Of a stretch of 64,000 bases of DNA, positions 20,981 through 64,000 are shown one piece after another. Origin of the DNA: Cliona cf. orientalis (Eukaryota > Porifera > Demospongiae > Clionaida > Clionaidae). Each line of letters begins with the position of its first letter. The first letter of the stretch is position 1. Below the pieces are notes generated by a model. It searched no databases. It was not told the origin of the DNA and saw only the letters and a list, made by a program, of their open reading frames with translations. The stretch covers positions 3,035,169 to 3,099,168 of the forward strand of contig OZ005701.1 of the NCBI GenBank assembly GCA_963930775.1, in the 5' to 3' direction. Position numbers and translations under genes: made by a program.

Positions 20981-21146
20981 ACAAACAATATTATTATGAT
21001 TAGCTACATGTACATACACAAGCAAGAAGACATCTTTTATTCATCACAGCATTATTTTGTAACTTATTTACTAGTACACGTATGGCAGCAGCGCATATAT
21101 ATAAACATGTACAATGTAGCTACAAAGTAAATCATCCGTGAGTCCC

Positions 21147-21147
<1 letters not shown>

Positions 21148-21178
<31 letters not shown>
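21148..21178. repeat. Poly-C run (31 nt)
   Basis: The longest uninterrupted C run in the window. The exact length is likely uncertain. Confidence 0.8.
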
Positions 21179-21776
21179 ACTGGATCATGGATCAGCTAGC
21201 ACAATGTCATATATGTACTTAGGTAGGGACTATAATAATATATTATAGCAACCCATCTGTAACTATAATAATTATTATTATGGTGTTGTACACATCTCCT
21301 ATCTTGAGCTCCAACATATTTCTTATGACAATTAGCTATTGTACTTTTCTTTGCATATCTGACTACTGCTGATTGCACCATGGTTGCACGAAAACACACG
21401 CACACAAATTGACACTAATCAGGAACCAATTTTCTATCGCTCGATCTGACAGCTCTACCACGTGGCTGTGGCCATGGCAAGTTCAACAGTAAGTGAACTG
21501 TACTAGCAATTAAGTCACAATAGCCATTGTCAGAGTTTGAAACTATTCTATTTGTTTTCGAAGTTACCTGACTGTTTTCTATTCATGGAAAGCTGAAGCA
21601 CTGGTGGATTCAACTAGGCATGGTTCCGTGACTCAAGCCATCCGTCATCGGTTTATTCTGGGGGGAAGGGGGAGCTTCTCCCTCAAAACACTCAGCTTCC
21701 CCTCCGCCCAAACTGGAAGAAAGAATGAAGAAAAAAGGGGGGAGGGGAGTGTATTGTTTTTATTTTTTTTTTAAAG

Positions 21777-21804
21777 CCCCCCCCCCCCCCCCCCCCCCCC
21801 CCCC
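21777..21804. repeat. Poly-C run (28 nt)
   Basis: Follows a T-rich stretch and a GGGGGGAAGGGGGAGC context (21660-21760) that looks like an expanded homopolymer inside a dispersed repeat. Confidence 0.8.
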
Positions 21805-22111
21805 GGATTTTTCACCATAAACTATGTACAATCAAGGGTGTATCGAGCTGTAGCTCGATAAGCCCTTGGTATAATAATATCATTTTTGCAAAAAGCCACC
21901 TTATCATTTAAAACACCACAGTGACTTTAATTTATACAGTTGATGCCTATAATGCTAGTATAATTCTCAAATGTTTAAACTTATACATACCTATTATGCC
22001 AGCCTACCCCTACCTGCAGGGGACGGATCTAGACTAGAGATAACTATTGAGGCTTAATAATGTTTAATATGATTGACTGACTAGCTGTGGGTTGTCATGT
22101 GGCTTATAATT

Positions 22112-22169
22112 AACCCTCGGTGCATGCACGAGGGTTACGGTAGTCGTTCCGTGTGTGTGTGTGTGTGTG

Positions 22170-22200
<31 letters not shown>

Positions 22201-22340
22201 TACCACGCTAACAGCTACATACCTCATTTGTGAGTCCAAATTGCGATGTTATAAGATTCCTTATGGCGTTCTAAACTCATGATTTGTGTGGATTTCGTAG
22301 AGAACGTTTTGTTCGAATTCACTAGTTTTGGAGTCATTTG
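22112..22340 (+). repeat. Dispersed repeat with AACCCTCGG..CGAGGGTT palindrome and GT/CTGT microsatellite, copy 1
   Basis: The order is AACCCTCGGTGCATGCACGAGGGTT, TACGGTAGTCGTTC, (GT)n(CTGT)n, TTACCACGCTA, then ACCTCATTTG. The same order is found on the opposite strand at about 51850-52112. The palindromic start suggests a foldback-type end. Confidence 0.75.
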
Positions 22341-22504
22341 CTTATTCTATGGTTCTTGACTACTCCGATCCCGGGCAGCTAACTTTTCGTATAAATAGAA
22401 CGCTGCTATATACGGCATAGGCCTAATAGTTATACGAATGCGCGAGGGCTACAAAGGCAGGGTCAGGGAACATATGGATGAAGGTGTATAAAGTTGGCAA
22501 AAAA

Positions 22505-22640
22505 CGGCATCTAGCAGAGTTGATCTGGGTTGGCTGAGCGGACTAGGGCTAGTGATGGTGGAGCTGTGGTGATGGGTTTGAATCCTGCTAGATCTTTAGA
22601 TTTTTTTTTCTTCCACTTTCGAAAATTTTCTAAGCTTTTT
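22505..22640 (+). mobile_element. tRNA-derived SINE, copy 1
   Basis: Carries a strong pol III A box (TGGCTGAGCGGACTAGG, about 22530) and a B box (GGTTTGAATCC, about 22574) about 44 bp apart. A T-rich tract follows, then a tail CTTCCACTTTCGAAAATTTTC. The region at 26126-26265 has the same leader (GCATCTRGCAG), the same A/B-box spacing and the same T-tract plus GAAATTTTC tail, so they form a family. The head most resembles a type II (Leu/Ser-like) tRNA; identity not determined. Confidence 0.68.
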
Positions 22641-25600: not shown

Positions 25601-25953
25601 CAGGTGGAATTTAATGAGCCAAGACTTAGCTCCACTCCAGCATGGATACTATAGTACCGGTATGACAGCGAACAGTTAACTCGCCTCTTCAGTCTTGCTT
25701 TGCAAGAAGCATAGATATGCGAGAAGTCGGAGACTTTGGTGGGCCCAGCTTGCGAGTACAACGATGACGTTCTCACTTCGATCCGCTCAAACTGGCGTCG
25801 ATGCTGGCGCCGGCGCAAGATCGAGAGATTAGGGCTAGGCTAGCTAGCTAGCTATACTGCAGCCTAGGCCGAGGCCGGCCGGCCGCGCCGAGCGCGCGGC
25901 GCTTTGCGCCTCGTGCATCTCCGGCTCCATGGTTACCATTTTTGGGAATTCCG
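22641..25953. other. Non-coding stretch with scattered repeats
   Basis: No supported gene. It contains a G12 run (24448-24459) in a repeat with CCACGCGAAGCGTGGG, a second G run at about 24640, and a GGCCGGCCGG/GCGCGCGGCGC GC-rich block at about 25868-25905. Open frames here are short and featureless. Confidence 0.4.
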
Positions 25954-26331
25954 TTATGTACCGAGAAACCCGCGCGCCATAGGCGCACGGCCCAGCCCCC
26001 GTAGGGGGCTGGGCTAAATTGCATAGTATTATATGAACGGCTAAGGGTAGGTAGGGTTTTGGTTTAGGGTAGGGTTTGACACACAAGGGTTAGTACTACT
26101 ATTGTCTTTAAAGTCGTGACAAAAGAGCATCTGGCAGCGGCGTTCACGGTGGTGCAGTGGTTAGGGCTCTGGTGTATGGATTCATATGCATGTATCCCAG
26201 TTCGATCCTCGCTCTATTCATTCAATTTCTTTTTTTTCCCCTTACACTCTGGAAATTTTCAAGTGAGGGAGGCGCGCGCCACACGTGATCAATAGAACGT
26301 CATCTTGACGCGCGGGTTTCTCGGTACATAA
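25954..26331. mobile_element. MITE with TTATGTACCGAGAAACCCGC inverted ends, carrying a SINE
   Basis: 23-bp ends 25954-25976 and 26309-26331 are perfect inverted copies. Just inside lies a GCCCAGCCCCC-GTA-GGGGGCTGGGC hairpin (25991-26015). The SINE copy at 26126-26265 sits within, so the SINE inserted into this element or is part of it. A target duplication is not obvious. Confidence 0.72.
26126..26265 (+). mobile_element. tRNA-derived SINE, copy 2
   Basis: GCATCTGGCAG leader, A box TGGTGCAGTGGTTAGG (about 26150), B box AGTTCGATCC (about 26199), T tract, and a tail CTTACACTCTGGAAATTTTC. Same architecture as 22505-22640. Confidence 0.66.
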
Positions 26332-26412
26332 GGGGATTCATTTTTTTGCACACGGCCCTACCGTTCTGACCAATCGGGTGCGTTATGACACAAAACGACA
26401 CTTTCTGAAAAT

Positions 26413-26885
26413 ATTTTTCGTTGTATACAAGTATGTTTAATGTCACAATCATGGGATAATGTGGCTAGCATCCATGATCATCTATTAACAGTACATGCTC
26501 ACAAAACATAGAGACATAGTTCATGCACAAACAGTATCCTGCCTGGGCAAGATTGCCCATTAGTATCGTGCGCATGCGCAGATGGAAGCGGTCGCAGAGG
26601 CCACACCCCTTGGCAAAGCAAGCAGCTCCAACTAAGTATGCAATGGCAACGTTCTCGCTCTGCTCGAACGTTGATAGCTACCGGACTACTGACAGGTATG
26701 AACAAACCTCGCCTCTCGCTTCGCTCGAGGCTCGGTGGCTAGCGCCAGCGCACGGCGCTTTCGCGCCGATCGTTCGACAATGCGTCTCTAGCTGTAGCTA
26801 TGGCCCGAGGCATTAAGGCCACTCTTCTTTGTGCACACGGCCCTACAGTTCTGACCAATCCTGAGCCTTGTAGTGCGGCTCGTTC
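26413..26885 (-). repeat. Dispersed 470-bp repeat, copy 2 (inverted to 20525-20980)
   Basis: Reverse complement of the 20.5-kb copy with scattered substitutions. The two lie 5.4 kb apart in opposite orientation and could pair as a large inverted repeat. Confidence 0.85.
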
Positions 26886-38270: not shown

Positions 38271-39448
38271 TTTTTTTTTTTTCTAGCTACTTAGTGTTTA
38301 ATTTTGTCTATAACAATTTCTGCAGATAGTATACAGTGGTTACATGAATAGCTGAGTAGCTAAAGTGAACATGAAACCAAAAAATTAGTGTAAGTACAAA
38401 GATTTTATTATTATCATGGTAAACGAGAGATATATGAAGAGAGTGTAGGTGAGGAGACAGTTGAGTGGGGTAGCGAGTTCCACAATGGGATAGTTCCAGG
38501 AAAAAAAGAGTTTTGGAATTGATTAGATCTCGCAAATATATTTCTGAACTGCAGGGGATGGGAGAAACGATTGCTGTAGTGGATGACCCTCAACTCCAGC
38601 GGGGACTCCGGCATAATTGTGAGATTGTTTACAATCTTGTACATGTGGTATAACCTAGCACGAGATCGCCTCTCTGCAAGAGCAAGAACACCACTCTGAG
38701 TGTACAAGTGGTCCCTGTCACAGGTCCAATTTTTGAGGCAGACCCGAAGAGCAAAACGCTGCACCTTCTCAAGGGATTCAATATCCCCGAGGAGATAGGG
38801 ACTCCAAACGACTGAGCAATACTCTAGATGGGGACGAATAAAAGACTTGTAAAGCTGGAGGAGAGTGGCCGAGTCAGCATGTTTACCAAACCGTCGGTAT
38901 AGAAGGCCGATGAGTCTCCTGGCGTTAATACACAAATTGGCCACATGGGTGGACCATGACAGGTCAGAGCGGATCTGCAAGCCCAGGTACCTCACAGATG
39001 AGACTGTTGTAAGGGGAGTACCTCCAACAGTGATGGCGGGGGAAGGAAGATTGGAGTTCTTTTTCCTAGAGATAAGCATTTGGCAGCATTTGGCAGGTTG
39101 TAAAGAGAGCAAAGAGCTGTCGATCCACGATACAATGGCAGAGACATCACTCTGGAGAATGGAATAATCCACAGATGAGAGAATTGGCCTGTAAAGGGCG
39201 ATGTCATCAGCAAAGAGGGAGATTTTACTGCCCGAAGAAATCTGACTGGCTGTCTCATTGATAAAAATTAAAAACAGTAAGGGTCCTAGGACAGAGCCCT
39301 GTGGCACCCCCGAGATAACAGGCAGGGAAGACGATTGCTCACCCCCAACAACAACTATCTGTGAACGGCAGGTAAGGTAACTTCGAATCCATTGCACAAC
39401 ATACGGGTCAGATCCAATCTCCTCAAGTCTATGAAGTAGGAGGCGCCT
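38271..39448 (-). CDS. LINE reverse transcriptase, 5'-truncated, C-terminal part intact
   Basis: The open frame on the minus strand runs from the satellite junction (39448) to a stop at 38414. It carries RT motifs 'GVPQGSVLGPLLFLIFINE' and catalytic 'LFADDIALY', then the thumb/connection block 'VRYLGLQIRSDLSW' and 'SFIRPHLEYCSVVWSPYL'. The ATG at 39457 lies in satellite DNA, so it is fortuitous. The RT fingers and endonuclease are missing. About 130 bp of 3' UTR leads to A12 (T run 38271-38282). The same clade (Jockey/CR1-like, poly-A tailed) as the LINE at 62.7-64 kb. No disabling change was seen in the retained part. Confidence 0.85.
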
Positions 39449-40194
39449 TTCACGCATTAATAGAATTATTCGTGGAGTCAGTGGGTGCTTGAATGACCAC
39501 TTATTCTAAACGTCTCGCGATCGCGTCAACCAACGCGTTTGCAAGAGGCACACCAACGAGCAGCCGAAACTGCACTCTCCTAGCATTATTGAAATTGAAA
39601 TTAATAGTGGAGTAGGCGGGCATTCGAATAACCATTCTTTCCAAACGTCTCGCGATTGGGTCAATCAACGCATTAATTTACAAAGGCACATTAAATAGGC
39701 CAGGTGGAGGATCAGTTAGCTGATGATTAATAGCACACTGCCACCACATGTGTGATAATTATTGTCTGATAATTGCAGTCCACATCCTGTGGGCGTGGTA
39801 TAATCTTAAACGTGGACCACTATGGATGACGATGAGCCTCTGATTCTGTTTAATATTATGTTGAGTGAGACTTGAGACAGTTGTGAGGAACTGGATGATG
39901 TACATATGGAGCTAGGGGATATCTTCTTCAGCTGCTCATGAGCGTCCTAGTGAAATGAAATAGGGGATTTCGGAACCATCTCAGTCTGCTAGCTCCAGAT
40001 CACTTGATGGGCTGTTGGTGTGGAGAACTTTGGTGGAGGTAGATCAAGAGGAGTTGGCATTACACTTATTGAATCTGAGTGATTATCCAAGGAAGGTAAA
40101 GCAAGAGATGGAGATTGCAGTCTGCCAAATGGTCCAGAGCGTGATGGGTCAACAGCATTCCAACACTTTCTCCTGTGCAGCAACCACTACTACT

Positions 40195-45189: not shown

Positions 45190-45401
45190 TGTAAGAGACC
45201 GGTCCAGCCGATTAGAGGGGATTGCAGACGATCGTAGGAGTCTTGATCTCACGAATAAACTGAATAGATAATAATATCAAACGGCTATAACTCAATAATA
45301 ATACTGCCACTATGACACGAAATAGACAACTACACAATCACAGAGTTAACTAGAATAAGTTCAATAGGTCATAGTTCAAGGAGTTCATTAATGTTCTTAC
45401 A
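45190..45401 (-). repeat. 3' LTR (212 bp)
   Basis: Aligns to 50170-50385 except for one C/T change (ACACAATC versus ACATAATC) and the absence of 4 bases (CAGAG versus CAGACTCAG). Termini TGT...ACA. The pol stop codon lies inside this LTR (TGTAA). Confidence 0.95.
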
Positions 45402-48198
45402 CCTCCCCTCCAAGCTCCTGTGGCGGATGTGCATAGGAGCTTGATATCCAACCGGTATCCTCCGATAGGTATGATGGTCTTTGTGTCACACGAGTAGACC
45501 GACGTGTCAGAGAAGAGGGTGGTGTGCATGGAGGGTTTGGGGTGTCCTCCGTTGGCACTGGAGTTGGTGAAGTGATTGAGATGGGGCGTCGTTTACGAAT
45601 GAATCGTCTGTTTCTTATGAAAACTGTTCCACTTTGAGTCTTTACAAAATATTTCCTGTACGGTCCGATATTCGTAACTGTCCCATACGTGTCCCACAGT
45701 TTAGTTGTTGGGTTTTGGATGACAACATGGTTTCCCACCTCCAATTCAGGGAGTGTGTGTGCTTGCTGGTTATAGATTCGAGTTGAGTTTTCGTGTGTTT
45801 TCTGGGCTTTCTTGTCTGCCTCAATCGAAGATTTTTGCCATTCTGGAGCGAAGGAACGGCGGTGGGCTGGTAGAGTGTCTTGTATCGGGTGGCCATACAG
45901 TTTTTGGGCAGGGGACAACCCATCTTTTCGACATGGTGTATTACGATATTGTAACAATGCTCTAGAGAGTTTGTTCCAGTTAACTGAGTGGCCGGTCCAA
46001 GAGGCTGAGATAAGTTTTTTCATGGACTTCACGGCTGACTCTGCCTTACCATTGCTCTGTGGGTAGTGGGGTGATGACATTTCATGTGACACTCCCCAAG
46101 TGTGAAGAAAACTGGCGAGATGCTGTGAGGTAAACTGAGGTCCTCCATCGGACCACATCAAATCTGGAACTGCAGTACGGCAGAAGTGGTCTCGCAGTGA
46201 GGCAGAGAGCTTTGTAGCTGTCATATCTTTTCCGACTTCGATGATGTCGGGCCAGTCAGTTTTACAATTAACAATTATTAAGAAGTTACGTCCCCCAAAG
46301 GATGCGAAATCCACAGCAATTTGTTGAAAAGGTCTCTGTGGGGGAGGCTTAGTCAGCATGGGTTCTTTAGTTTGGGATGGCAAGCGATCCTGACAGGGTC
46401 TGCAACCCTGGACAAAGTGCTCGATGTCTTGGTCAATGTTGGGCCAATAGAGGGTCAGGCGAGCTCTTGCTTGCGAGCGTGAGATCCCTTGGTGAGCCTC
46501 ATGGAGTCGGCTGAGGATGGTGGGACGTAGACTGCAAGGAATGAATAACCGGCATCCGTAAACAATGAGGTCATCATCGATACTCAGGTGGTCTTTGATG
46601 CCCCAAAACCTTTTCAGCGATTCGGGGAGATCTGCTTTGGTGCTAGGAAATCCACGGAGGATGGTCTCTTTGAGAGCTTGATATTCGGTGTCTCGCTGCG
46701 CGTGTTGGCGAAGTTCTTGGAGATGGAGATTCTCGTGGTCAGGATCATGCTGAGTGGAGGAGCGGATTTGTGCAAACGACATGGCTTGGGTAGTTTCTCC
46801 TGCATCCATGTCCTGTTCTGCGAGCTCATCATTGCTGTTTGGTGCCGAGTGTGGGAAGCGTGAGAGTGCATCCGCAGCTTCGTGCTGGGAACCTTTTTCC
46901 CACTGTGTTGTGAACCTGTATGCCATGATGCGTGTTCTCAGGCGTTGTAGTCGTGGGTTTTCGATCTCATCCAGTCTGTGCGTGTTGAGTATGGGGATGA
47001 GGGGATTGTGGTCAGTGATGACGGTAAAATGGTCTATTCCTGCAAGGAAGATGTGGCATTTCTTAATAGCCCATGTCACAGCTAGGCATTCCAATTCGAT
47101 TACGGCATATCGAGTTTCTGCATCAGTCAAAAACCTCGATCCAGCTTGTACGAGTTTCCATTCAGATTCATTTTGTTGTGACTTTTGCATGAGGAGGAAT
47201 CCTAACCCCAGCCTACTTGCATCTGTGTACAGACGGGTGTCCTTTGTAGGGTCAAAGTATGCTAGGGTAGGAGCCGTAGTCAGGGTCTGTTTTGCCTTGA
47301 GGAAGGCCTCGTCATGAACTGGGGTCCACAGAAAGTCGTTGCGTGAGCTAAGTAGTGGACGCAAGGGTGCTAGGACGTTTGAGACACTATTAGTGCTAGA
47401 TGCAATCTGGTTGACGAGGCCACAAAATGAGCGGAGGTCAGTGCGACTCGTCGGGGTTGGAAAGTTAGCTATGGCTGCGGTGATTTCGTCGCTAACCGAG
47501 TATCCTGTTTGGGTGAGTTGTAGCCCAGCAAATCGCACTTCAGTTCGACAGAGTCGGAATTTGTCTCGGTTCAGGGAGATGCCTTTCTCTGTGCACCGAC
47601 GCAATATCTCTCGCACATGATCTATGTGCTGTTGTTTGTCCTGGTCATAAACGATGACATCATCAACTATCTTGCGGATGTTGGTAATTCCCTGAAAGGC
47701 TTCATCCATTCTTCGATTATAGTGTTCACTGATGGATGATATGCCGTAGGGTGCCCGCCGATACATGTAGCGTCCAAAGGGTGTAATGAATGTAGTTAGC
47801 CTTTGGCTAACCTCGTCGAGAGGGCATTGGTGGTAGCCCTTGAGAGCGTCAAACACGGTAAAATACTTTGCTGATGATGCCTGGATATCAGCAACAGCGT
47901 CTTGCGGGGTTATGGAAGGGTAGTGTTCTCTGCGAACGTACTTGTTCAGTTTGGAGAGGTCCACGCACATGCGGATGCGGTCTGTGCCTTTTTTCGGTGC
48001 CACTACGATTGGTGCACACCACTCTGTTGGTTCCGTTACTGGTGTGATGATCCCTTGGTCGACCAGAAGGTCAATTTCTTGTTTGAGTTTCTCTCGGTAT
48101 GCAAAGGGGATCGTGCGTGGTGTGGATACGCAAAATGGTTTAGCCTCCTTTGTGAGAGATATGTGAAATTTCTCTCCCGGCATAGTGCGTACCTCTGA
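45397..48198 (-). CDS. pol: Ty3/gypsy Pol polyprotein (RT, RNase H, integrase)
   Basis: A single uninterrupted frame of 928 codons from the internal ATG at 48183. The frame is open a little further upstream and lacks its own start if expressed by frameshift. Reverse transcriptase: 'CVDLSKLNKYV' (about residue 73), 'FDALKGYHQCPL' (about 111) and catalytic 'IVDDVIVYD' (D174, D175). RNase H: 'LYTDAS' (D321) to 'HEAADALSRFP'. Integrase: an HHCC zinc finger ('HEAHQG'...'CRPCQ', about 565-600), then 'IAVDFASFGG', 'WSDGGPQFTS' and 'SPHYPQSNGKAE' as the D,D,E core (about 620-720). No chromodomain seen. The stop codon is formed at the LTR border. Expressed by -1 frameshift, or separated from gag-pro by a 2-bp mutation (see 48191-48216). 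Confidence 0.95.
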   Translation of the reverse strand, partial: SEVRTMPGEKFHISLTKEAKPFCVSTPRTIPFAYREKLKQEIDLLVDQGIITPVTEPTEWCAPIVVAPKKGTDRIRMCVDLSKLNKYVRREHYPSITPQDAVADIQASSAKYFTVFDALKGYHQCPLDEVSQRLTTFITPFGRYMYRRAPYGISSISEHYNRRMDEAFQGITNIRKIVDDVIVYDQDKQQHIDHVREILRRCTEKGISLNRDKFRLCRTEVRFAGLQLTQTGYSVSDEITAAIANFPTPTSRTDLRSFCGLVNQIASSTNSVSNVLAPLRPLLSSRNDFLWTPVHDEAFLKAKQTLTTAPTLAYFDPTKDTRLYTDASRLGLGFLLMQKSQQNESEWKLVQAGSRFLTDAETRYAVIELECLAVTWAIKKCHIFLAGIDHFTVITDHNPLIPILNTHRLDEIENPRLQRLRTRIMAYRFTTQWEKGSQHEAADALSRFPHSAPNSNDELAEQDMDAGETTQAMSFAQIRSSTQHDPDHENLHLQELRQHAQRDTEYQALKETILRGFPSTKADLPESLKRFWGIKDHLSIDDDLIVYGCRLFIPCSLRPTILSRLHEAHQGISRSQARARLTLYWPNIDQDIEHFVQGCRPCQDRLPSQTKEPMLTKPPPQRPFQQIAVDFASFGGRNFLIIVNCKTDWPDIIEVGKDMTATKLSASLRDHFCRTAVPDLMWSDGGPQFTSQHLASFLHTWGVSHEMSSPHYPQSNGKAESAVKSMKKLISASWTGHSVNWNKLSRALLQYRNTPCRKDGLSPAQKLYGHPIQDTLPAHRRSFAPEWQKSSIEADKKAQKTHENSTRIYNQQAHTLPELEVGNHVVIQNPTTKLWDTYGTVTNIGPYRKYFVKTQSGTVFIRNRRFIRKRRPISITSPTPVPTEDTPNPPCTPPSSLTRRSTRVTQRPSYLSEDTGWISSSYAHPPQELGGEV
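45402..45411 (-). promoter_or_regulatory. Polypurine tract
   Basis: Minus strand GGAGGGGAGG lies immediately 5' of the 3' LTR and overlaps the last codons of pol; expected primer site for plus-strand DNA synthesis. Confidence 0.85.
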
Positions 48199-48216
48199 CC
48201 ATCGAAAACTTTTGGG
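48191..48216 (-). other. gag-pro/pol frame junction with CCCAAAA slippery heptamer
   Basis: In the gag-pro frame the minus strand reads C CCA AAA (48216-48210), a textbook X XXY YYZ -1 slip site. Slipping back one base enters the pol frame, which is open from there. Alternatively, a duplicated AG in CAGAG (about 48195-48192) may be a 2-bp insertion that split an ancestral single frame. Protein homology on each side of the AG fits that reading slightly better. Confidence 0.55.
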
Positions 48217-49298
48217 AACTCTGCCATGAGCTCTTCCACTGTTGGTGTTCGTCCTTGTGGGGTTGATAGACGAGTCTGGCAGACAGTGCTATTTTCATGT
48301 GGCTTTGGATAGCAGCTTGGTAGGATGCCGAGCGTTTGTGCAGTGTCCCAAGAGATGATGGCGCCAGATATGGAAGGGTATATATGAACGTCCTTCTTCA
48401 CCTTCCTGCCCTGTAGGCAGAAGGTAACTTTAGGAATTTTGCCGATAGGGTGGAGGACGGTACCGTTGATGGCTCTTGGGGTGATATCTGAATGGGCGAG
48501 GTTGTCGAGGCATTCGCCAAGGGTTTGGACGAACAGGGGGCCTGCGGCGCAAATGTCGGCTCCTGAGTCTGGTAGGACTTCAACATAGGCTTGGCCGTAC
48601 GGTGTGGTTGCTAGGATGTTGATTCGTGGAGCTGGGACGAAGGGGGCGTTGCCTAGGTTGGATAAGGTGGCTTGTGAGGAGTGGTCCGGTGGGATGCTTA
48701 GAGAGCCGGTTTGTGGGGGGTTGGTTTGAGGAATGGGCTTTGTCATGAGTTTTTGGCGGCAAACTCTCCCAAAATGGCCGACTTTCCCGCAGTTGCGACA
48801 CGTTTGGTTAAAAGCGGGACAACTCTTTCTACCTCCAACGTGTAGGTTGCTTCCACAGCCTGGGCATGTTTTGGTCGGGTTGGTTGGAGGTGGTGGTCGG
48901 ACGGCATTAATGGCAGGTGTTGGTTGTATGTGCTGTCTCGATTTCTTGGCAGACTCGAGAGCGCGGCACTTGGAGATCGCTTGCTCGAGAGTGAGGTCCT
49001 TCACTTGAAGCAACTCTTGAATTATTTCCCCATCCTGAAGTCCTTCAATAATCTGGTCTCGGATTGCTTTCTGGAGGCAGTCATTGTTACAAAAGTTGCA
49101 GGTTTTAGCGAGTTCGCGAAGACTTACAAGATAATCGTCGAATGTCTCACCGACGTGCTGAGCTCTTTGACGGAGGTTGCGTCGTTCAATGGATTCATTG
49201 ACTTGTCCGTCGACATAGGACTTCAGGGCTGCGATGGTCTGAGCTTGATCTTTCTTTTGAGCGGTCGTCAGTCCTAGGTTGTCAACGATTTTTAGGGT
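48199..49298 (-). CDS. gag: Gag (C-terminal part) and protease
   Basis: The frame is open from the downstream edge of the nested insert to the pol junction. From the fortuitous ATG at 49301 it shows a capsid-like helical region (about residues 1-120, 'AQHVGETFDDYLVSLRELAK'). Two zinc-binding motifs follow: CPGCGSNLHVGGRKSC (146-161) and the retroviral-type knuckle CRNCGKVGHFGRVC (168-181). The aspartic protease signature 'DSGADICAAG' is at about 245. In phase, the open frame runs on past 48199 to 48036, but that tail is pol sequence read out of frame. The N-terminal part of Gag lies on the other side of the insert (49957-50130). Confidence 0.88.
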
Positions 49299-49956
49299 CA
49301 TGTCCAGAAATGGGCGGACACGGAGCCAGCTTTTATCCGTATACTATAAAATTGCTCCGTGTCACGCGCGCAGCCTCAATGTATTATTCACTATGGGAAT
49401 AAATTTTTACCGACTTAGTAGAGCCTCAAGGAGTAAAAATGCCAAAATGCACCGATTCAGTCATGATCATCATCCTTTTTACTAGCTATAAACGACAATA
49501 AACGATACTAAAACCTTCGTTAGGTCTTTCCAATTGGGCTGTCTTTACGGCTGCTTCTTGAGTCCTCACCGCCATATATACGCATACAAAATGAATGGAG
49601 CAGCCCACTTCCTACCCCTCCTACAAGTACTTACCGGATAAACTTCAAAATTGCACCGATCTATTTATACAGCCGAAAGGTTGAAGTTTCAAAATATCCA
49701 CGAATGGAGTCTCGAAAAGAATGTTTGGGCTTTCCAAATCAGGTACCAAGTTCGGGATTTTCGATCATTTCTCTATCACGTTTGATGTGCGTTATTTAGA
49801 ATACGCCCGTAACCACGGTAACGGTTGCTGCAAAGAGCTTGTAAGTGGCTTGTACCATGCTTGTACACTGCTTGTAATTGCTAATTGGAGCTAGTCTTAT
49901 CAATCTATAATAGAAATGTATGGGTGAACTAGTCATAGTGCATATTTCTGGACATG
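49299..49956. mobile_element. 658-bp element nested in gag, 13-bp inverted ends CATGTCCAGAAAT
   Basis: Ends at 49299-49311 and 49944-49956 are perfect inverted copies (CATGTCCAGAAAT). The 658-bp interior has no coding frame. Removing exactly 658 bp joins the two gag parts in one frame, implying insertion without a target-site duplication. If CATG is taken instead as a 4-bp duplication (insert 49303-49952), the parts would be out of frame. It is not an intron: there is no GT-AG pair at the borders. Superfamily not assigned. Confidence 0.8.
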
Positions 49957-53159: not shown

Positions 53160-53930
53160 CATCCAAAAGTATGCATCTACAACCCCTGTTCAACCTTGAG
53201 TGAGAGAAACATCAATAGAATTCAGTAGAACAGAGAAATGATAGCCGTACATCCATGCTCACTACAAAATGGCTGTGGGTCCTTAGTCATACATAAGAAT
53301 GCGCCTGTCCAATCTTGAGTGAGAGAAACATTGATAATGACAGCCGTACATGCATGCCCACTACAAAATGTGTGTGGATCATACTTACCACTCCCTGGCT
53401 GTGGATCCTTAGTCATACCAAAGTTTAAGTGTACACCTCCTATCCAACCTTGAGTGAGAGAAACAATCGGGAGAAGTAGAGAAGATGACAGCCACAGGTC
53501 CTGGAGTGTTCTTGCTGACATTAAAAACCAGGCTCAAGCTGCGGTTCCTTAGTCATCCAAAAGTATGCGTCTACAACCCCTGTTCAACCTCGAGTGAGAG
53601 AAACATTGATAGCATTCAGTAGAATAGAGATATGACAGTCGTACATGCATGTCCACTACAAAATATGTGTGGACCATACTTACCACTCCCTGGGCTGTGG
53701 GTCCTTAGTCATCCCAAAGTTTGAGTGTACACTCCCTATCCAACCCCTGTTCAACAATGAGTGAGAGAAACAATCAGGAGAAGTAGAAAAGATGACAGCC
53801 ATAGATGTACGTCTACAGGAGTGTTCTACAAATTGCGAGCGGATATTAAGAACCAGGCTCAAGCTGCGGGTCCTTAATCATCCAAAATATGCGTCTACAA
53901 TCCCTGTCCAACCTTGAGTGAGAGACATAC
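53160..53930 (-). repeat. Tandem duplicated exon-like units (about 370 bp)
   Basis: The set CAACCTTGAGTGAGAGAAAC, ATGACAGCCGTACATGCATG, CACTACAAAATGTGTGTGGA, TACTTACCACTCCCTGG and GGTCCTTAGTCAT recurs two to three times. On the minus strand, short frames share 'GWIGGVHLNFGMTKDPQPGS' and variants. The motif GGGAGTGGTAAGTATG provides a conserved-looking splice donor after that block in both units. This looks like duplicated exons of a decayed or partial gene on the minus strand, but flanking exons and an intact reading frame are not evident. Confidence 0.5.
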
Positions 53931-54130
53931 TTCCTGCAAACAAATAGTGAACGAGTGTAGCAAGTATCACAGGTTTATGTATCTTCTAACTATATATGTA
54001 AGAGAATACTCACTCGCCTTTCTGTTGCGGGTCCGTAGTCCAAACAAGGAAGCTCATGGTAGAAGAATTGTCAACGGTCACAGAAACCAAGATTTTCTGG
54101 CCTAACAATCTAGTGGAAGAGAAGCAATAC

Positions 54131-54138
54131 ATGTAAAC
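54131..54138. repeat. 8-bp target-site duplication (left), ATGTAAAC
   Basis: Exact copy of 59391-59398, directly outside the left inverted repeat. Confidence 0.95.
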
Positions 54139-54217
54139 CAAGAGTAGATTAGCCATAAGAGTGTTGAACTACTGCAGGGCCCGTGTAAACGCGAAACGTC
54201 TGAATGACGTCACGTTA
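54139..54217 (+). repeat. Left terminal inverted repeat (79 bp)
   Basis: Begins CAAGAGTAGATTAGCCATAA and ends TGACGTCACGTTA. It pairs with 59312-59390 at 78 of 79 positions (GCAGGGCCC versus GCAGAGCCC). It contains the perfect palindrome TGACGTCA, a CREB/ATF-type site. Confidence 0.96.
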
Positions 54218-54377
54218 ATGAAAGCGCGCGGTTGTATAGCATGTACTTTAAGTGGGTGTTGAGTCAACACATAAACCACCATATCATGCATGCATGCACA
54301 GCTGTGCCACGTGGCCTGATAACCATATACACTGTGTATTAACGCGTGCTGAATGAGTGAATTGCAAGATCACAGAA
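54218..54377 (+). promoter_or_regulatory. Subterminal region and likely promoter of the accessory gene
   Basis: 160 bp between the inverted repeat and the first ATG. It holds GCACAGCTG then CCACGTGG (an E-box, 54307-54314) about 64 bp before the ATG. The same pair (GCACAGCTG, CCACGTGG at 59234-59241) lies near the transposase start, which suggests shared subterminal binding sites or a shared control element. Promoter function is inferred. Confidence 0.45.
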
Positions 54378-55586
54378 ATGGCCAGCAAAGTTAAGAAGCT
54401 TACACAGAAAGAAGTGAAAACAGTTGCAGATAAGTTAGAATATGCATCTCCAGAAGGATGTGATCAACTGTCATCAAAGATACTGGAGGACATAGCAAAC
54501 TCCAAACAAGTATCTGTGTTTGAGCAAAGAAAAGAGCTACTAACTTTGTTGAGAAATGATCTGTATGATGAATTCAAATCTTTGGTAAGCTCCTTGCTTG
54601 GTGACTATGTGTACTTATATCGGTCTACAAAGGGAAGAACAAAATATGCAGACTTTCAAGTTGAGTGGTTGCAGCATATTAGAGCTGTTGGTGAAAACGG
54701 GTCAATGTTTGCTACCAGTGATGCTCAGCCAACACAAGAATATGAATCAGACATCATCCCAAATAGTAATACTCATGCTACATGGGCAGTGGTGTACTGT
54801 CAAGCCATGGATGCACTAGGACACATATCTGATGATACTAATCTTATCATTTTGCACACAATTGCCGGTGCAGTGTATAACCATCAGCAGCAGAAATTCA
54901 TTCGTACACAATGCCATGAAACAGCACCAAACACAGTGTCCCTACCTTCTGATGATGATGCCCTTTATCGGATGTGTGGAGCGGAAATCTGTAGGATGAT
55001 CAAAGCCAGGCAAAAGAGTGCAAAAAAGGATGAAGAGGTTTGCTTTTTGAAACGATTGACTATCAAAGCTCAGGACAAAGAGAAGATACCACTGCCACAG
55101 GGAATAAAGAATCTGGATCAAACTGGCTTCCTGTGGGTACCTATCCCTCAACTCTTGCCCTATTTACGAGAGGTAGACACATTATTCCAGAATGAAATTA
55201 ATCATGACAAATTTAGACTAAAGGGTGACCGAATTTTTGAGGTAGGAACCTAAATTTATTACCATTAAGTATCACTAAATGGACACTCACACACTTATAT
55301 TTTGACACAGGATGCTCAGAAGACTTTTTCTGAACAAGAGGAGAGATTGCACAGCATTTTCCAAACATGCTTGAATAACTCTGACGCTTTTGGGACTCAT
55401 AAATTACCACCAAGTGCATTTGCTGTCTTTAAAGAACTTAATTCAAAGATGCTAAACCTGCGTAAAGAAGATTGGCTCTCATCATGGAAAAGAATCACAT
55501 TAAATAAGAAAGGGAAAACATCAGCAGTAACATTAATGCTAAGAGATGAACTTAAGCCTCAGTCAGCTGTCAAGTCCAGAAAGTAA
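54378..55586 (+). CDS. Transposon-borne protein of unknown function (2 exons, 379 aa)
   Basis: Exons 54378-55241 and 55311-55586 (864 and 276 nt) join in phase 0 across a 69-bp intron (GAG|GTAGGA ... GACACAG|GAT). The ATG at 54378 sits in a strong context (AGAAATGGCC) and is the first in-frame ATG. The chain starts with a Lys/Glu-rich, probably helical segment (residues 1-70) and has no signal peptide, membrane segment or zinc-finger cysteine pattern. The middle has 'DDDALYRMCGAEICRMIKAR' (about 200-220), then 'IPLPQGIKNLDQTGFLWVPI' and 'LLPYLREVD'. It ends in a basic tail (SAVKSRK). I do not recognise a known domain. It resembles uncharacterised proteins I loosely associate with marine-invertebrate transposons (weak, from memory). 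Its integrity inside near-identical ends argues it serves the transposon, perhaps as a regulator or transposase partner. Confidence 0.8.
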
Positions 55587-55593
55587 CTGTAGT

Positions 55594-58500
55594 TTAGTGC
55601 TTCCTATTGTATTTCTTCTTAGTTAGAACACCATGTAGGTTTACTTTGTCCTTTCTGTAATGCTCAGTATTCTTCGTTGCATCAGCAATAATCAGTTTTG
55701 CCACGCTTCCTTGGTAGTTAATCGCGGACAAGTGACCTCCAGCATTGCACTTGAAGCGGCCGAACAGACTTTCAACCACACTGCCATTGATTCGCACTGG
55801 GACTATGTAGTATCCAGGGTATCTGGCCAGAAAGTCTTGACACAATCCAATGAATCCTGTCACAGTCAGCTGGAGAAGGTCCCAAGTCTGCAATAGGGGA
55901 ATAGCAGGTGTACATGAGAGGGGGTGGTTGGTATATGTTACACACATTGTACCTAATTAAAGCACACCCAGTTATCAACACTTACAGAGGAAATTAACAC
56001 TTAGTACCTAACAGACAATACACTAGCTGTACCTGCCAGGCTAGAAATGTTGTTTGCCTATCATCAGTGATGTCACAACCTGCATGTACAAAATTAATGT
56101 AAATCTGTGAAATGTAGTCAAAGTTAAGGAATTTTCATCATACCTGATTTTAAGGCCTCATCACACCATCCTTCAAAAAATTTGAAGCCAGATTCAATAT
56201 TTTTTAGAGCAGGGGAATCAAGGTCAGATATAGGTTTCTGTGAGAGTAGACCAGTCTCAAAGATGCTATTGAGTGCAACAAGATATGCCAGAGTGGTCTT
56301 GTCGTAGTCCAACGTAGACCCTCTTTCTAGAGTGCAGTCCAAGTGGGTTTGTATTTCAGCTATGACCTTCTCTTGCTACATGTATACATCATCATACATG
56401 TGAATAATAGACATACATGTAACACTTGCATGCAATTATCAGCTGATATTCCACGTATGCATGTATGTAGTAGTGTCACATACATGTACCTGCATAATCT
56501 GTGCTGGAGTGACATTCAGACGGATCCATGAATCACGGTATATGTACCGAGACTTCATTCTTGGAATCGTCACCATCTGACCCTTCTGTGACCTCTCCAC
56601 TTCTCTCTCCCAAAGCCTTTCTATGGTCTTCCAACCAAAAAAAGTGCCTCCTTTGAAAAAATGCTTTGTTTTCTCAACTCCAGAATTGTACAACACAGAC
56701 ACTAGACTCTTCAACTGCGCAACAAGTAAGTGTGAATGTACATGTACATGTGGCATACACATCAAACTATTTTACCTCATGTGATGGGCATACAATACAC
56801 CAAGTGCGCCATCCTGAGAAGGGATTAGTGAATGATGCAGAAATAGATTCAGTTCCAAATTTGCCAGTGTGTCCACTCAGCTTCTTGAATAGTGCTTGGT
56901 TCCAACTTGCGCCATCACCCACAATCGCACCCACATGAAAATTGTATGTTTCAAATACCAGCATTGCATCAAAGAGACAGGCAAGTGTGAACTTTGCATC
57001 GAATCCATCAGAGCTGGTATAATGAGGCCCAACTACATCAAAGCTCCCAGTGAGATCTCGCCATACGAACTGCAGTATGTACCGTGTCTCTTGAACCTTT
57101 TGAGCATCGTCAAGAGAGGTGTAGACGTCTTGTAGTGCTGGAAGATCGCTAGGTGTCATTGCAACTCCAATAATCTGATTGTTCTTCGAATTCCACACGA
57201 CTTTCCCTTGCACACGAACTTCATCAAATATCAGTATTCCATATCCTTGGGGCTGGTGATGTCCTCCAGACACCTGCTCTTTCTTGTACTTCTCATATAA
57301 CTCGAACTGGGCAGCAATTTGGCCCTCATTCGCACCTGGCTCACTCCTTTCATTCGACAGGAAAGCTTGCAAACTCGATCTGTTGGGTAGCTGAAGAATG
57401 CCAAGATTTCGTACTGCTTCAAATGCTGCTGGGCTCCGGGAATAGATTGCCAATGCTGAAGGTACATGTAGTTTGACACGTGCACAACATACATGTATTA
57501 TGCATACTTGTAATGTCATGTAGGTTAATCACATACCTATTCTGTATGTAATCGTGCTCCACCTGTTACCCTTTGAGCCTGTTACTATATCAAAGAAAAC
57601 CAATAACCACTTGATCATAATTACAATTAATGAACAAACTTACTGTTACTTTGTTGGTCCTTAAAAAAGGCAGCCTTCTCCTTAGCATTATTCCATACCG
57701 CTCTCAGCAATTCACCACGACCTTCACCAGAGTTTTCTGCTTCACCAACCATGCTGTCAAGCGTCGATCGAGCAACTTCACTTTCTTCTAAGCCATTGAT
57801 GAGCTTGGCTAGCTCTTCTCCTTGTGTGTCTGTCAAAGAAACACCTATGTATTTGAACCATAATTATTTTATCGATAACAATATTATTATTCAAGATAAC
57901 AGCTTGTTTACTTGTTGCATCAGAAATCTTTTTTACTTTGCGAAGTAGGTCATGCCTCTCCCTCACAAGTTTCTTGCGACGTTTGTCTTGGCTGTCTGGG
58001 CTCAACTTGCTCCAACCATAGTTGGACGAAGGGTCTGTTCTGTTTACCTTGGTCTCAAAATCAAGTAAAACCGCACGTTTAGCCATTGTTTGGAGATGTT
58101 GATGAACCTGAAACGTGCATACACACATGCTAATCAGTAGTGAAATAGAAATGGTGAAGATACCTTTTTGCATTCATTGCAAACATCATGTAGTTTATGC
58201 AGTAAATTCAACCGGCGATTTGAAGGATTATGCCAAAGAATACATTGGTTAGATTCATACCGAACAATAGGCTCACGGATGATATGAACTTCACTGCTCT
58301 GAAAACGGATGACACTCTGCTTGTCTTCATAGTCACTCACACACAATCCAGGGCAAAGGACGTATCCAGAATCTGGAAGGAGCATCCTCACCACCGAATT
58401 GAACTCGTCATTTGAGTGAATGATTCCTGTAGTAATAGTGTGTTTGAATACCATTACCTGATTTACGTTTACACGTAGTACTGACCTTTTGTAATAGTGC

Positions 58501-59257
58501 GAGAAAATGGGAAGAGCACTTGGATTTGGTAGATTCCCATATCAGATACAATTATGCGAGCGCAATTGGTAGGGCCTATGGTAGGATGAACCACGACAGA
58601 GGGAGATACCACTTCAAGCCAACATTTTCCTCCTTCAATTCCTGAACTTTCATTAAGGTGAATGTAGCGGTACTTCAGTGAAGGAAATTTCTCTTGTATA
58701 TTCGCTTCTAGAGTTGGTAAAAGCGGATGGTTATCTTCAGAAATAGCCTCTATTTGATGCACTTCTCCTGCAGTTATCCCTGGACTTGCTTTCATTAGGA
58801 CATCTCCCTTTGTGGCAGACTGCTGAGGCAGTGATTTGAATAATGATCTTGGTGTCACCGTGTCCACTGTACCTTGGGTAACAGACCCCACAAATGATTT
58901 CCTCTTGTGCTCACAGCTTGGCTCTGGAGTTATAGCAGACGAGGAGTGAGCTCTCTTGCTCCTGGGGGTCGTTTCAAGGAGACTTTTCATGCTAAAACTA
59001 TTTCCAGTGGCAGATGTAGTATGAGATCTCAAGTTACTTGATCTTGGAGACTTGGACAGTAGATTCTTCATGTCAAACTGAGACCCCCTCCTTCCACGAG
59101 GACTGCATCTTTTCATAAGAACACCTCTCTTTCGAGCAGGAGATGGGAACAGCTTTGCCTTTAGCAACCGCGCGCTACTCGAAGGAGTTCTCATGGCTCT
59201 ATGGCTAGCTACACAAAAACTGCACAGCTGGCACCACGTGGCTGCAGGACTGTACAT
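55594..59257 (-). CDS. P-element-like transposase (10 exons, about 978 aa)
   Basis: Exons on the minus strand: 59257-58486, 58426-58164, 58107-57912, 57829-57644, 57578-57537, 57455-56776, 56714-56490, 56375-56144, 56079-56033 and 55887-55594. They total 2937 nt (978 codons plus stop); every intron is GT-AG, 56-145 bp, and all phases agree. The N-terminal exon is Ser/Arg/Lys-rich and basic; the second ATG (59194) may be the real start. Exon 2 has CPGLC and CNECKK pairs that could bind zinc. Exon 6 opens with 'LAIYSRSPAAFEAVR' and the first catalytic-type Asp in 'ILIFDEVRVQG' (about D564), then 'VGAIVGDGASWNQALFKKL' (about D667). Exon 10 has 'NGSVVESLFGRFKCNAGGH' (candidate acidic residue about E920). 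The S-P-x-A-[FY]-E-x-V-R, DE-V and GDGAS-N motifs are those of P-superfamily transposases. No THAP finger is obvious. Exact catalytic residues are inferred. Confidence 0.85.
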
Positions 59258-59311
59258 ATCTGTTTACACAGTGACATGGTGTTAAGCGGTTGATAAGCAT
59301 ACCAGGGCTGA

Positions 59312-59390
59312 TAACGTGACGTCATTCAGACGTTTCGCGTTTACACGGGCTCTGCAGTAGTTCAACACTCTTATGGCTAATCTACTCTTG
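59312..59390 (-). repeat. Right terminal inverted repeat (79 bp)
   Basis: Inverted partner of 54139-54217, with the TGACGTCA palindrome at its inner part. Confidence 0.96.
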
Positions 59391-59398
59391 ATGTAAAC
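59391..59398. repeat. 8-bp target-site duplication (right), ATGTAAAC
   Basis: Exact copy of 54131-54138. Confidence 0.95.
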
Positions 59399-60490
59399 TC
59401 ATCGTTCTCTAAATGGGTCTCATGTCCTCACTATGAGTATAGGGGCGGCCCGGTGGGGACTATGACAATGGCATGTAGCTACACTTGTTTTGCCATCACG
59501 GGTCCTTACTTGAAACACACAAAGGGTATTCTTGACAATGGCCACAGAAACTGGAAATATCCGAGCCAGGCTAATAATCAAATGGAAGAGAGCCACGCTG
59601 TCATCTCCCTCCTCCCTCTACGGTTCCACGAGTACTTGGTAGCGCAGACTTAATGATTTTAACCTGCTATATCCTAGTTTTGGAAATGGCGGGGAATGGC
59701 GTAACTTTACCCGTACCCGGTTGCCTCGGATTTACGCCCATTCTCTTGAGGCCGTACGGCTTAATGATATTCATATGTATATAGATCGGTAACGGGTCGC
59801 GATCGCGTTTGCGTTGTTACAGGTGTCAACTTGTACCATGGCTTATGATGTTGCAGCTAGCTGCTACACCATGTTGACACAGCCTGAGGGATGACATAGG
59901 TAACATAGACACCTGCTTGGGTCATTCCTCAGGCCAACTAAGATAATGTTAGGTGAATAATTGATTTCACCACCTCCAATGGAGCAATCTAATTGGTCAA
60001 TATGTTACAAACAAGGTACAACGGTTAATAATCTAACTCCTAATACTTCCTGAGTCCATTTAGTGAGAATTTAGTATATATACCCAGGCTTATGGTACCC
60101 CTTATCCACTGAACATTCCAATTAATGCATGCTCAATGTGTACATTGTACCTACAGGGATGGCTGGTGTAAAAGTATCTCAGCTCGCAGTAGCAGTCGGT
60201 CATAAATCCTGTCTAACAAATGTGCAAATCCTCAGTTTCTGCTAAGGCTTAAAATTGATGTTTAAAAATTATAGAGGGATGCAGTGATGTGCTGTCCTTA
60301 CTTTATAACTGTCAAATGTGGAAAGTATGATTTGTGGCTGAGCTGCACACATTCTACCACAAGAGTGCAAAGTAGGCCACATATTTCCTGCTTCCTGGAA
60401 ATTGCCTAATAGCCTAATCCCACCTGTAACTAACACCTCATGCAGATAATAGACTAGGACAAGCTAGAGCCTGAACAGCTGCTCAGAACA
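59399..60490. other. Non-coding stretch
   Basis: No exon recognised. The sequences on either side of the transposon (before 54131 and after 59399) do not match a gene I know. Confidence 0.4.
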
Positions 60491-60570: not shown

Positions 60571-61620
60571 ACTTCTCAAAACTCTCAAAACCACTCTCCA
60601 AGAAAACACCTTTGCTAGGAGCTGGCCCACTTCACAGAGAAGGTTTCCCAGGCCCATATAATTTTGTGTAAGCTGTGTTTGGTTGATCAATATGTCAGTA
60701 AATAAAAGCTTGCTCAATTGTAGGTGGCACCACCAAGTTCCTCACAGCCTTGTAGTGCTGGCACTAACTAGCTAGTTGATGGTGGATTGCTGCTGCTGGG
60801 TAAACTTTAACCCAGCGATCCAATTGTTGCAGATCCAGGAAGTGCATCCGATGGCACGTTCCAGTGCATGCAATTTTTGCCGTTTTTTTATCTATTTTTC
60901 TTACTTGTTCTATCTAGGCCATCTTTCACTTCTAGGACTCCAAACAAAGACCAGAAGACAGAGCAACTCTTCTACTGTCTGCTCGTTCAAGTCGCATAAC
61001 CCGGAGACATTCATGAGCTCCGCAGCAAGCGCTTTTGTGCGTGCTACTCGCAAGCGCTCACAAAAAGTGCCTCGCGCAAAAAGTGGCACGTTTTGGTTCC
61101 CTGGAATGGATTCCCATGATTCAAGCACCATTCAATAGCTCTTGCGTTGCTCTACAATATAAGACTGGAACGATGTTTTTCCATCTAGCCGTTCCAGAGT
61201 TACACGGCATCACTTGAAAATCAGTACAACCGCGTAGCATTCTTCTGTATCTTCACGCGATTTCTCCAAGAATGAGCCAAGGAGAAGAGTGCTCATTATG
61301 AAGCTTCAAGTTTCTAGGGGCCTTCTAGGCTAGTGAGGAGGCGTCATCATCCAGATGGATAGTTTCTGTACTGGAGTGAAGATTGGTAGTACATTCTATA
61401 CTCTTGTAGTCGAGTGTGCCGAGTGTGAGGCAACTAGCTACAGCTAGATATACTAGATTATTCATATGTAGATCTATAGATCAGGCAGCCCAGGGATGAG
61501 GGCGAGCCTTACCAGCTGAAATAGCTCAAGAATAGAAAGGAGTCTCAGTGTTGTACCTGTGCCATAATTATGTGACATCCATAGGTGGCGGCGGAACCAG
61601 GGGGGCACCAGGGGCACGTG

Positions 61621-61639
61621 CCCCCCCCCCCCCCCCCCC
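61621..61639. repeat. Poly-C run (19 nt)
   Basis: In context CCAGGGGGGCACCAGGGGCA before the run; similar to the 28.8-kb cluster. Confidence 0.8.
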
Positions 61640-61698
61640 TTGCATGACAGTCCTTCAATAGATCCCTATTGTGGTAGACATGTGATACACCCATTGTG

Positions 61699-61722
61699 CC
61701 CCCCCCCCCCCCCCCCCCCCCC
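61699..61722. repeat. Poly-C run (24 nt)
   Basis: Second C run within the same element, preceded by CCCATTGTG. Confidence 0.8.
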
Positions 61723-61829
61723 AGTCACAGCCATCTTCCTCCACCACTGACATTGATGCTGAACTTGAAGCTTGGGGGTCTATTCAGTAAATTATTTAAG
61801 TAATCGGCACTCTCCTATATACCTGTCTG

Positions 61830-61953
<124 letters not shown>

Positions 61954-62420
61954 TCGAGGTGCTGAGAGAGCTCCATTTACTGAGGTATACTGTCTGCAGC
62001 TGCTTGAGCAGTTTCTCTGTCAACCAATGACTGTCATGATGGCATAGGAGACTGGTTGTCAAAGAAAAATTTTGTTCCAGTCTTATATTGTAGAGCAACA
62101 CAAGAGCTATTGAATGATGCTTAAATCATGGGAATCCATCCAGGGGAACCAAAACGTACCACTTTTTGCGCGAGGCACTTTTTGTGAGCGCTTGCGAGTA
62201 GCATGCACAAAAGCGCTTGCTGCGGAGCTCATGAATGTCTCCGGGTTATGCGACCGTCCGTCAGCCTTAATATCGGGTAATAGGTCGTCATACAATCATG
62301 TCAATATCTGGATATAGATTTAAACCATGCTCACTCTGCATCTGTGGCATGCGCACTAGCGCACCTGCTATCGTGTACACCGCATATGCGATCTAACGCA
62401 AACGCTATCTGATGCGCGCG

Positions 62421-62514
62421 CCCACGCGTGACGGCGCGTCGACTTGCGGTGCGAGTGCTCGGTGGAGCCGCGCTCTAGTTCTGAATCTCAGATCAGGCGA
62501 GATCACCCGCTGAA

Positions 62515-62548
<34 letters not shown>

Positions 62549-62706
62549 AACAAGGATTCCCCCAGTAACGGCGAGCGAAGTGGGAACAGCTCGAGCCTGA
62601 AATCCCTGGCAGGTGCTGCCAGAGAATTGTGGCCGGGAGAGGCGGCATGGCCCCGACTGTCGCTGTCGAAGTTGACCTGGAAAGGCACGTCGGAGAGGGT
62701 GAGAGG
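62421..62706 (+). rRNA. 28S rRNA 5'-end fragment (with probable ITS2 end)
   Basis: From about 62480 the text reads AATCTCAGATCAGGCGAGAT, CACCCGCTGAATTTAAGCAT, ATCAATAAGCGGAGGAAAAG, AAACTAACAAGGATTCCCCC and AGTAACGGCGAGCGAAGTGG. This is the highly conserved 5' end of eukaryotic 28S rRNA (5.8S-pairing region and the start of D1). About 225 nt of 28S are present. The GC-rich 60 bp before it (62421-62479) is plausibly the 3' end of ITS2. The fragment stops at about 62702-62710, where LINE sequence begins. It is not a functional rRNA gene. Confidence 0.9.
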
Positions 62707-64000
62707 GTCCTATACTTTTTTGCATAAAATAATGCAAAAAACCAGTATTCCTCCCCTCAGTATAAGTGACCAATCCAAATTCTCAAATGCTATCTCCAGT
62801 GAATGTCCTCCTGAGCTCCTCTGTTCAGAAGAAGAGGTACTAGATCTACTTTTGTCATTAGATACCACAAAGGCCAACGGCCCTGATGGCATCTCAGCCA
62901 CAATGTTAAAAGCTACTGCCTCTTCTATTGCAAGCAGTGTTGCCTTTCTTTCCAATAGATCTATTCAACTAGGAGCACTACCAGAGGAATGGAAACTCTC
63001 AGCAGTAAATCCAATACCCAAAAGTGGTGCCAAAGACAGCCCCAAAAACTATCGGCCCATCTCACTGTTGTCAATACTCAGTAAGCTGCTTGAAAAACAC
63101 ATGCACAGCCTAATTCTTGGACACCTACAATCAGTTTCTCCCCTAGCATCACAGCAATGCATGGGGATTTCGTTCTAAACGATCAACCGTATCAGCATTA
63201 CTTGATGCAGTAAACAATTGGCAGCAGACACTTGATAATTGTAAAGAGATCTGTGCTATTTTCTTCGATCTAAGAAAAGCCTTCGATTCGGTTCCACATA
63301 GTCTTCTACTGAACAAGATGAAGAGCCTGGGTTTTGATGATCACATTATGAAGTGGACCTTTTCCTATCTATGCAACAGACAACAGTATGTTGTACTTAA
63401 TGGAAAGCAGTCATCTGCTAAGCTGGTTCTCTCAGGCGTACCACAGGGTTCCGTTCTTGGTCCCTTACTGTTCCTTATATACATTAATGATGCAGTAAAC
63501 GAAGAACTGGATAGTGGAACACGTATTATACTATACGCTGATGATATTTTGTTATACAGAACTATTTCGAGCCCGGCTGACTATGGCAAGTTACAAGTAG
63601 ATATCGACATTCTCTCCTCCTGGATTACCTCGAATAATTTATCTCTCAATATCGCTAAATGTAAATTCCTGGTTATATCAAGGCTGCGGAAGAATTCCAT
63701 ACCTGTACCGACATTGACTCTTAATAGCCATCCAATGGAAAGAGTTTCTTCCTACAAGTACTTAGGTGTGACAATCACAGAGGACCTATCTTGGTCAAGT
63801 CACATTAACGAGATCACCAAAAAAGCCCGTAAACATATTGGCCTATTATACCGTCAATTCTATGCGTGGTCTACTCCTGATGCACTGCTCACGTTATACA
63901 AATCTGTTGTAAGGCCGCACTTGGAGTATGCCTCTCAAGTCTGGAGTCCCCACCTGATTAAACATATCAACCAGCTAGAATTGGTGCAGAAATTTGCCCT
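62707..64000 (+). pseudogene. LINE (Jockey/CR1-like) RT, 5'-truncated, fused to 28S, runs off the window
   Basis: The plus frame from the 28S junction reads 'ELLCSEEEVLDLLLSLDT', 'KANGPDGISATMLKA', 'NYRPISLLSILSKLLEKH' to about 63165. A 4-bp insertion in AATGCATGGGG then shifts the frame. It resumes with 'GFRSKRSTVSALLDAV', 'FFDLRKAFDSVPHSLLL', 'GVPQGSVLGPLLFLIYIND', catalytic 'LYADDILLY' and 'YKYLGVTITEDLSW', and stays open to the window edge. The endonuclease is absent, as expected after premature 5' termination. Same clade as 38.3-39.4 kb, roughly half the residues identical by eye. Confidence 0.88.

Follow-up and report, generated by a model that had tools for sequence, protein, structure and literature searches.

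The element and its two genes

The stretch considered here, 64,000 nucleotides of contig OZ005701.1 of the sponge Cliona cf. orientalis (positions 3,035,169 to 3,099,168 of the forward strand; hereafter the window, with positions counted from its first letter), carries a P-superfamily transposon at 54139..59390. We judge the structure of this 5252-bp element to be real and far beyond chance. Its left terminal inverted repeat (TIR), 79 bp at 54139..54217, starts with CAAGAG, and its right TIR, 79 bp at 59312..59390, finishes with CTCTTG; one mismatch separates the two arms, which extend to 84 nt at 96% identity once a few flanking bases are counted in. The 8-bp target-site duplication ATGTAAAC is present on the left (54131..54138) and, as an exact copy, on the right (59391..59398). 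Between the ends lie two convergent genes, an accessory gene on the plus strand and a transposase gene on the minus strand, the stop codons of which are 7 bp apart. A preliminary description of this DNA had named the inverted ends at 54139 and 59390 with their single mismatch, the perfect 8-bp duplication of this copy and two genes predicted to be spliced, and all of these withstood our analysis. Related degenerate stretches (cacagaaac...ggaagaga) can also be seen by eye in both flanks of the element (53900-54130 and 59400-59600), so that an older repeat may have been its insertion site.

The transposase gene, as predicted, runs from 59194 to 55594 on the minus strand and would encode 959 amino acids in ten exons separated by nine GT..AG introns; this length holds for the acceptor chosen for exon 4, while another one, 15 bp further upstream, keeps the frame as well. 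Exon 1 (58486..59194), with an inferred ATG, encodes an N-terminal extension, and exon 2 (58164..58426) four conserved cysteines (C261, C298, C319 and C322). Exons 3 (57912..58107), 4 (57644..57829) and 5 (57537..57584, 48 bp) lead to exon 6 (56776..57455), which carries the RNase H N-terminal domain PF21787 with D545 and D648. Exons 7 (56490..56714), 8 (56144..56375) and 9 (56033..56079, 47 bp) follow, and exon 10 (55594..55887) bears the putative catalytic E901 and the stop codon. Five of the nine junctions (at amino acids 452, 468, 695, 770 and 863) fall within stretches that match uninterrupted relatives, the remaining four in poorly conserved stretches.

The product contains a P-type RNase H transposase domain. 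D545 and D648 are found in all 31 aligned relatives and E901 in 24 of 25, and by position and motif we assign these three residues as the putative catalytic DDE triad. The transposase core fold, by way of relative P0008, matches 6p5a/6pe2. This structural match covers the GTP-binding insertion domain (model 286-787) at the level of the overall fold, and by sequence, profile A3 hit no P transposase in the PDB. A THAP domain was found neither in the spliced transposase (E up to 5) nor in 31 relatives (E up to 0.01). A six-frame scan of the genome for THAP within 10 kb gave a match at 1 of 49 loci of the clade to which this transposase belongs, yet at just 2 of 53 other P-type loci, and is thus uninformative. 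Overall, the transposase core supports membership in the P superfamily, and since no THAP domain was found, the element is not a canonical P element; the earlier label "P-element-like" therefore holds at the level of the superfamily but no further.

The accessory gene is predicted to encode 379 amino acids in two exons with one GT-AG intron. Exon 1 (54378..55241, plus strand) is an open frame of 288 codons, matched by ENA protein P0001, and exon 2 (55311..55586) contains the stop codon and a conserved C-terminal motif; the join is backed by relatives P0005 and P0006, which consist of a single open frame. No Pfam family scored above cut-off in the window protein, in line with the initial remark that it has no recognised domain, and scans of 18 family members (E up to 0.01) gave one weak hit each in two of them. 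A sequence search of the PDB returned no relative, and the relatives outside this genome are solely unnamed ENA/lgn proteins (P0001-P0007, P0039-P0050). The predicted model of P0005 is almost all helix (mean pLDDT 78.5, pTM 0.50), and a fold search with it gave no convincing match. In alignment A1 of the accessory proteins, which has one invariant and five nearly invariant columns, conservation is highest in two motifs, one GIKNLDQTG..WVP-like and the other, at the C-terminus, KGKTS..TLMLRDELKP-like.

Copies of the element in the host genome

A search of the host genome (216.8 Mb) with the first 240 bases of the element gave 47 matches. Three full-length copies exist, namely the window element, L061 and L062, and all three carry both genes, a co-occurrence that the preliminary description had proposed to check. 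L061 is 99.71% identical to the window element (15 differences in 5252, no indel), and L062 is 99.05% identical (50 differences, seven indels). L062 is dead, because a stop in its transposase exons is joined by frame-breaking indels in the exons of both genes: a 2-bp insertion in the transposase and, in accessory exon 1, a 2-bp deletion, beside which a deletion of 6 bp is present.

Besides the window, 20 stretches with matching ends were fetched, and both ends were present in 15 of them and one end in 5. Among the 16 two-ended copies (window included), the target duplication measures 7 bp in 13 and 8 bp in the window copy, and is missing in two. The family thus usually makes 7-bp duplications, not the 8-bp ones that the preliminary description gave for animal P elements, and the 8-bp duplication is peculiar to the window copy. 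Thirteen short two-ended copies consist of ends and subterminal sequence without gene content (blastn), as expected for non-autonomous copies mobilised in trans; two of them, L065 and L080, stand out by greater divergence and the lack of a duplication. Overall, the element is young and apparently intact, and its family has moved recently.

Pairing and joint divergence of the two genes

Accessory exon 1, used as a query, produced 30 matches at 27 loci, 26 of which have a transposase match 1.3-4.1 kb away, always in convergent orientation; the transposase set behind this count comprised 72 loci, from close to distant kin. When a second, divergent accessory query was added, the number of loci rose to 39. 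A transposase of the clade lies within 6 kb at 36 of them, and all 36 pairs are convergent, while the chance of such a neighbour at a random point is 0.31%. Seen from the other side, an accessory match was found at 34 of the 49 clade transposase loci. No accessory match lay within 10 kb of any of the 37 top-scoring PF21787 matches (the best 37 of 118, none of them of the clade), so that the pairing looks clade-specific.

Four divergent elements were fetched whole, and each holds both genes inside one TIR pair, the open frames being less than 100 bp apart. Their ends read CAAGAG in three cases and CAGGAG in one. The duplications are of 7 bp in L081, L083 and L084 and match at 6 of 7 positions in L082; in L083 and L084, shifting the element start would lengthen the duplication. 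As the pair recurs across many distantly related elements, the accessory gene appears to be a functional component that such elements retain over the long term.

The distances of the two proteins were compared for the 17 of 36 pairs in which both genes had been fetched. Pairwise accessory and transposase distances correlate with r = 0.943 (17 loci), and with near-duplicates removed the values are 0.916 (15 loci) and 0.896 (13 loci); none of 9999 permutations reached these values. Such a correlation means that families can seldom have swapped partners. Purifying selection acts on the accessory protein. Its ratio of nonsynonymous to synonymous change (dN/dS) in four pairs from other families is 0.31, 0.21, 0.40 and 0.17, of which 0.21 and 0.40 rest on just 9 and 5 changes, and in a fifth pair silent changes were saturated. 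Among the three copies of the window family, the accessory ratios are 0.13, 0.04 and 0.09 (3 to 8 changes), and the transposase ratios in the same comparisons are 0.87, 0.50 and 0.35, values influenced by the dead copy.

Some further observations concern other loci of the genome. At C1:16261837-16264036, one of the three accessory loci without a clade transposase, a THAP match is found on the same strand at a distance of about 1.1 kb, which may be a coincidence or the trace of a rearranged element. Other P-type transposase loci are numerous (PF21787 matches); ten have a 551-amino-acid open frame, most of these at nearly equal scores, and at one other P-type locus, L107, no long inverted ends were seen in the 4 kb fetched.

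The window itself contains additional repeats and open frames. Inverted repeats of at least 93 nt (GGGATCGACTAAG...) at 11859-14585 are flanked by the exact 10-bp repeat TAGTCTAAGC and represent another DNA transposon or a deleted copy; the length of this duplication, we presume, recalls Mutator-like elements. Long inverted ends at 20528-26878, with several arms of 46-65 nt at 85-97%, enclose about 6.3 kb, and a simple scan gave no flanking duplication longer than 3 bp there. Two more inverted-repeat pairs occur at 15837-18714 (167 nt at 97%) and 60991-62254 (191 nt at 94%), where a scan of the flanks gave no convincing duplication. Two long overlapping frames of 963 and 435 amino acids at 45397-49343 (minus strand) we take, by their motifs, to be pol and gag of a Ty3/gypsy-type long terminal repeat retrotransposon. 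The open frames at 38414-39505 (minus strand, 363 amino acids) and 62432-63178 (plus strand, 248 amino acids) are presumably fragments of non-LTR reverse transcriptases.

The second gene among known systems and its possible role

P elements are one-gene transposons, the transposase of which finds the element ends via its THAP domain. Two-protein cut-and-paste elements are known from PIF/Harbinger, where the second protein serves as a transposition partner, but these have a different transposase family and 3-bp duplications; Kolobok elements make TTAA duplications. Our literature searches found no description of a two-gene P-superfamily element; Repbase lay outside their scope, and an undiscussed entry there is possible.

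With the Drosophila P element and the THAP9-type element Pdre2, the window element shares the transposase core fold, the DDE triad, TIRs and, in the window copy, the 8-bp duplication. According to the parts of PMC7776569 and PMC10983969 consulted, these two elements have a THAP-bearing transposase, 8-bp duplications and TIRs of 31 or 13 bp, whereas here the TIRs measure 79 bp, no THAP domain was found, and the four conserved cysteines are spaced differently. A second, convergent gene is present in all three full-length copies of 5.25 kb, and while 8 bp is the rule in canonical P, it occurs here in just 1 of 16 two-ended copies, most having 7 bp. In this respect, the family resembles Galileo, which likewise belongs to the P superfamily and for which the portion of PMC4168063 used here gives 7-bp duplications as the rule and a few of 8 bp. 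Galileo, however, has a THAP domain along with long TIRs, and the same portion of PMC4168063 mentions no second gene.

The layout is that of RAG-like elements (RAGL/ProtoRAG), in which, as excerpts of PMC7204232 describe, the enzyme and partner genes stand tail-to-tail and the partner, RAG2L, is less conserved; here, too, the catalytic and partner genes are convergent (36 of 36 paired loci), and the partner is the less conserved of the two. Unlike our element, with its P-type core and 7-8 bp duplications, RAGL elements make 5-bp duplications and their RAG2L has Kelch repeats (the same excerpts of PMC7204232). No Kelch model appeared in the Pfam scans of the 18 accessory proteins at E up to 0.01, and the P0005 model is helical. 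Kolobok offers a further parallel within the DDE superfamilies: the passages of PMC9587614 at hand tell its lineages apart by accessory proteins (KolX, a His-Me nuclease), one of them encoded on the complementary strand. Kolobok nevertheless belongs to another superfamily, and its KolX is a seven-cysteine zinc fold (PMC9587614, in the same passages), whereas alignment A1 has no conserved cysteine set.

Keeping these parallels in mind, we consider it fairly probable that the window element represents a THAP-less two-gene lineage of the P superfamily, an autonomous-looking cut-and-paste transposon whose second protein is a transposition partner. Under this scenario, the minus-strand gene would supply a DDE transposase that excises and inserts the element in the manner of P transposases, cutting the CAAGAG...CTCTTG ends and joining them to a target staggered by 7 bp (here 8 bp). 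The convergent plus-strand gene would supply an all-helical partner, carried since before the families of the lineage diverged and kept by selection, which, much as RAG2 assists RAG1, may help the transposase in recognising the DNA ends, in synapsis or in choosing the target. We think it most likely that the accessory protein works alongside the transposase at the ends or the target, and see regulation as the main rival, because the accessory protein is selected for, the enzyme has no THAP domain and the tail-to-tail layout is RAG-like. We infer that the two proteins would meet in the nucleus and contact each other physically, and that transposition would require the partner. The original claim of a conserved accessory factor is thus borne out as regards linkage, co-divergence and purifying selection, while a part in transposition is what we propose from them. 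Going one step further, we tentatively suggest an independently evolved two-subunit transposase, in which the catalytic subunit, devoid of a THAP domain, would depend on a partner that the element itself encodes and that belongs to a new family of helical proteins, a parallel to RAG1/RAG2 within a different branch of RNase H transposases.

Several points weigh against a transposition partner. No transposase match lies near three of the 39 accessory loci, 2 of the 36 pairs rely on weak transposase matches, and the two accessory queries left 15 of the 49 clade transposase loci unmatched. Two such loci were read: L106 does hold an accessory gene, and L105 has none within 4.5 kb. The accessory protein shows no recognised domain or clear fold match, and hence gives no direct pointer to DNA binding or transposase contact. 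Its divergence also outpaces that of the transposase core (mean distance 0.72 vs 0.52), which would equally fit a regulator or host-facing protein outside the transposition machinery, such as a transposase repressor, a copy-number control or a counter to host silencing. To the same effect, alignment A1 contains no conserved set of catalytic-looking or metal-binding residues, and since 7 bp separates the stops in the window and less than 100 bp the frames in the divergent elements, overlap between the two transcripts is probable and would be in keeping with coupling or antisense control. Linkage, orientation and selection, however, suit both readings equally, and with nothing specific in favour of regulation, we regard it as a somewhat unlikely explanation. 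Capture of the plus-strand gene from the host, or its presence as a mere passenger with no role in the element, is highly improbable: its unnamed outside relatives would allow a host origin in the distant past, but the preliminary description's caution that it might be a private host exon is answered by its recurrence, always convergent, beside transposases of one clade at 36 of 39 loci, and co-divergence, purifying selection and the lack of any sign of an independent host gene family speak against capture as well. The abundance of other inverted repeats and retrotransposon-like frames in the window could also raise the thought of two separate elements, nested or adjacent, with coincidentally common ends. 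This we take as refuted, as both genes lie within one pair of ends in all three full-length copies, at different sites, and likewise in all four divergent elements.

With a transposition partner as the favoured reading, the system lends itself to direct study: the genome offers two apparently intact copies that are nearly identical, along with numerous short ones sharing their ends, so that ordinary transposition assays could test it. If a deep lineage lacks a recognisable THAP domain yet keeps a conserved second protein, the P superfamily, too, would have adopted a two-component system, in parallel to the RAG-like and Kolobok elements.
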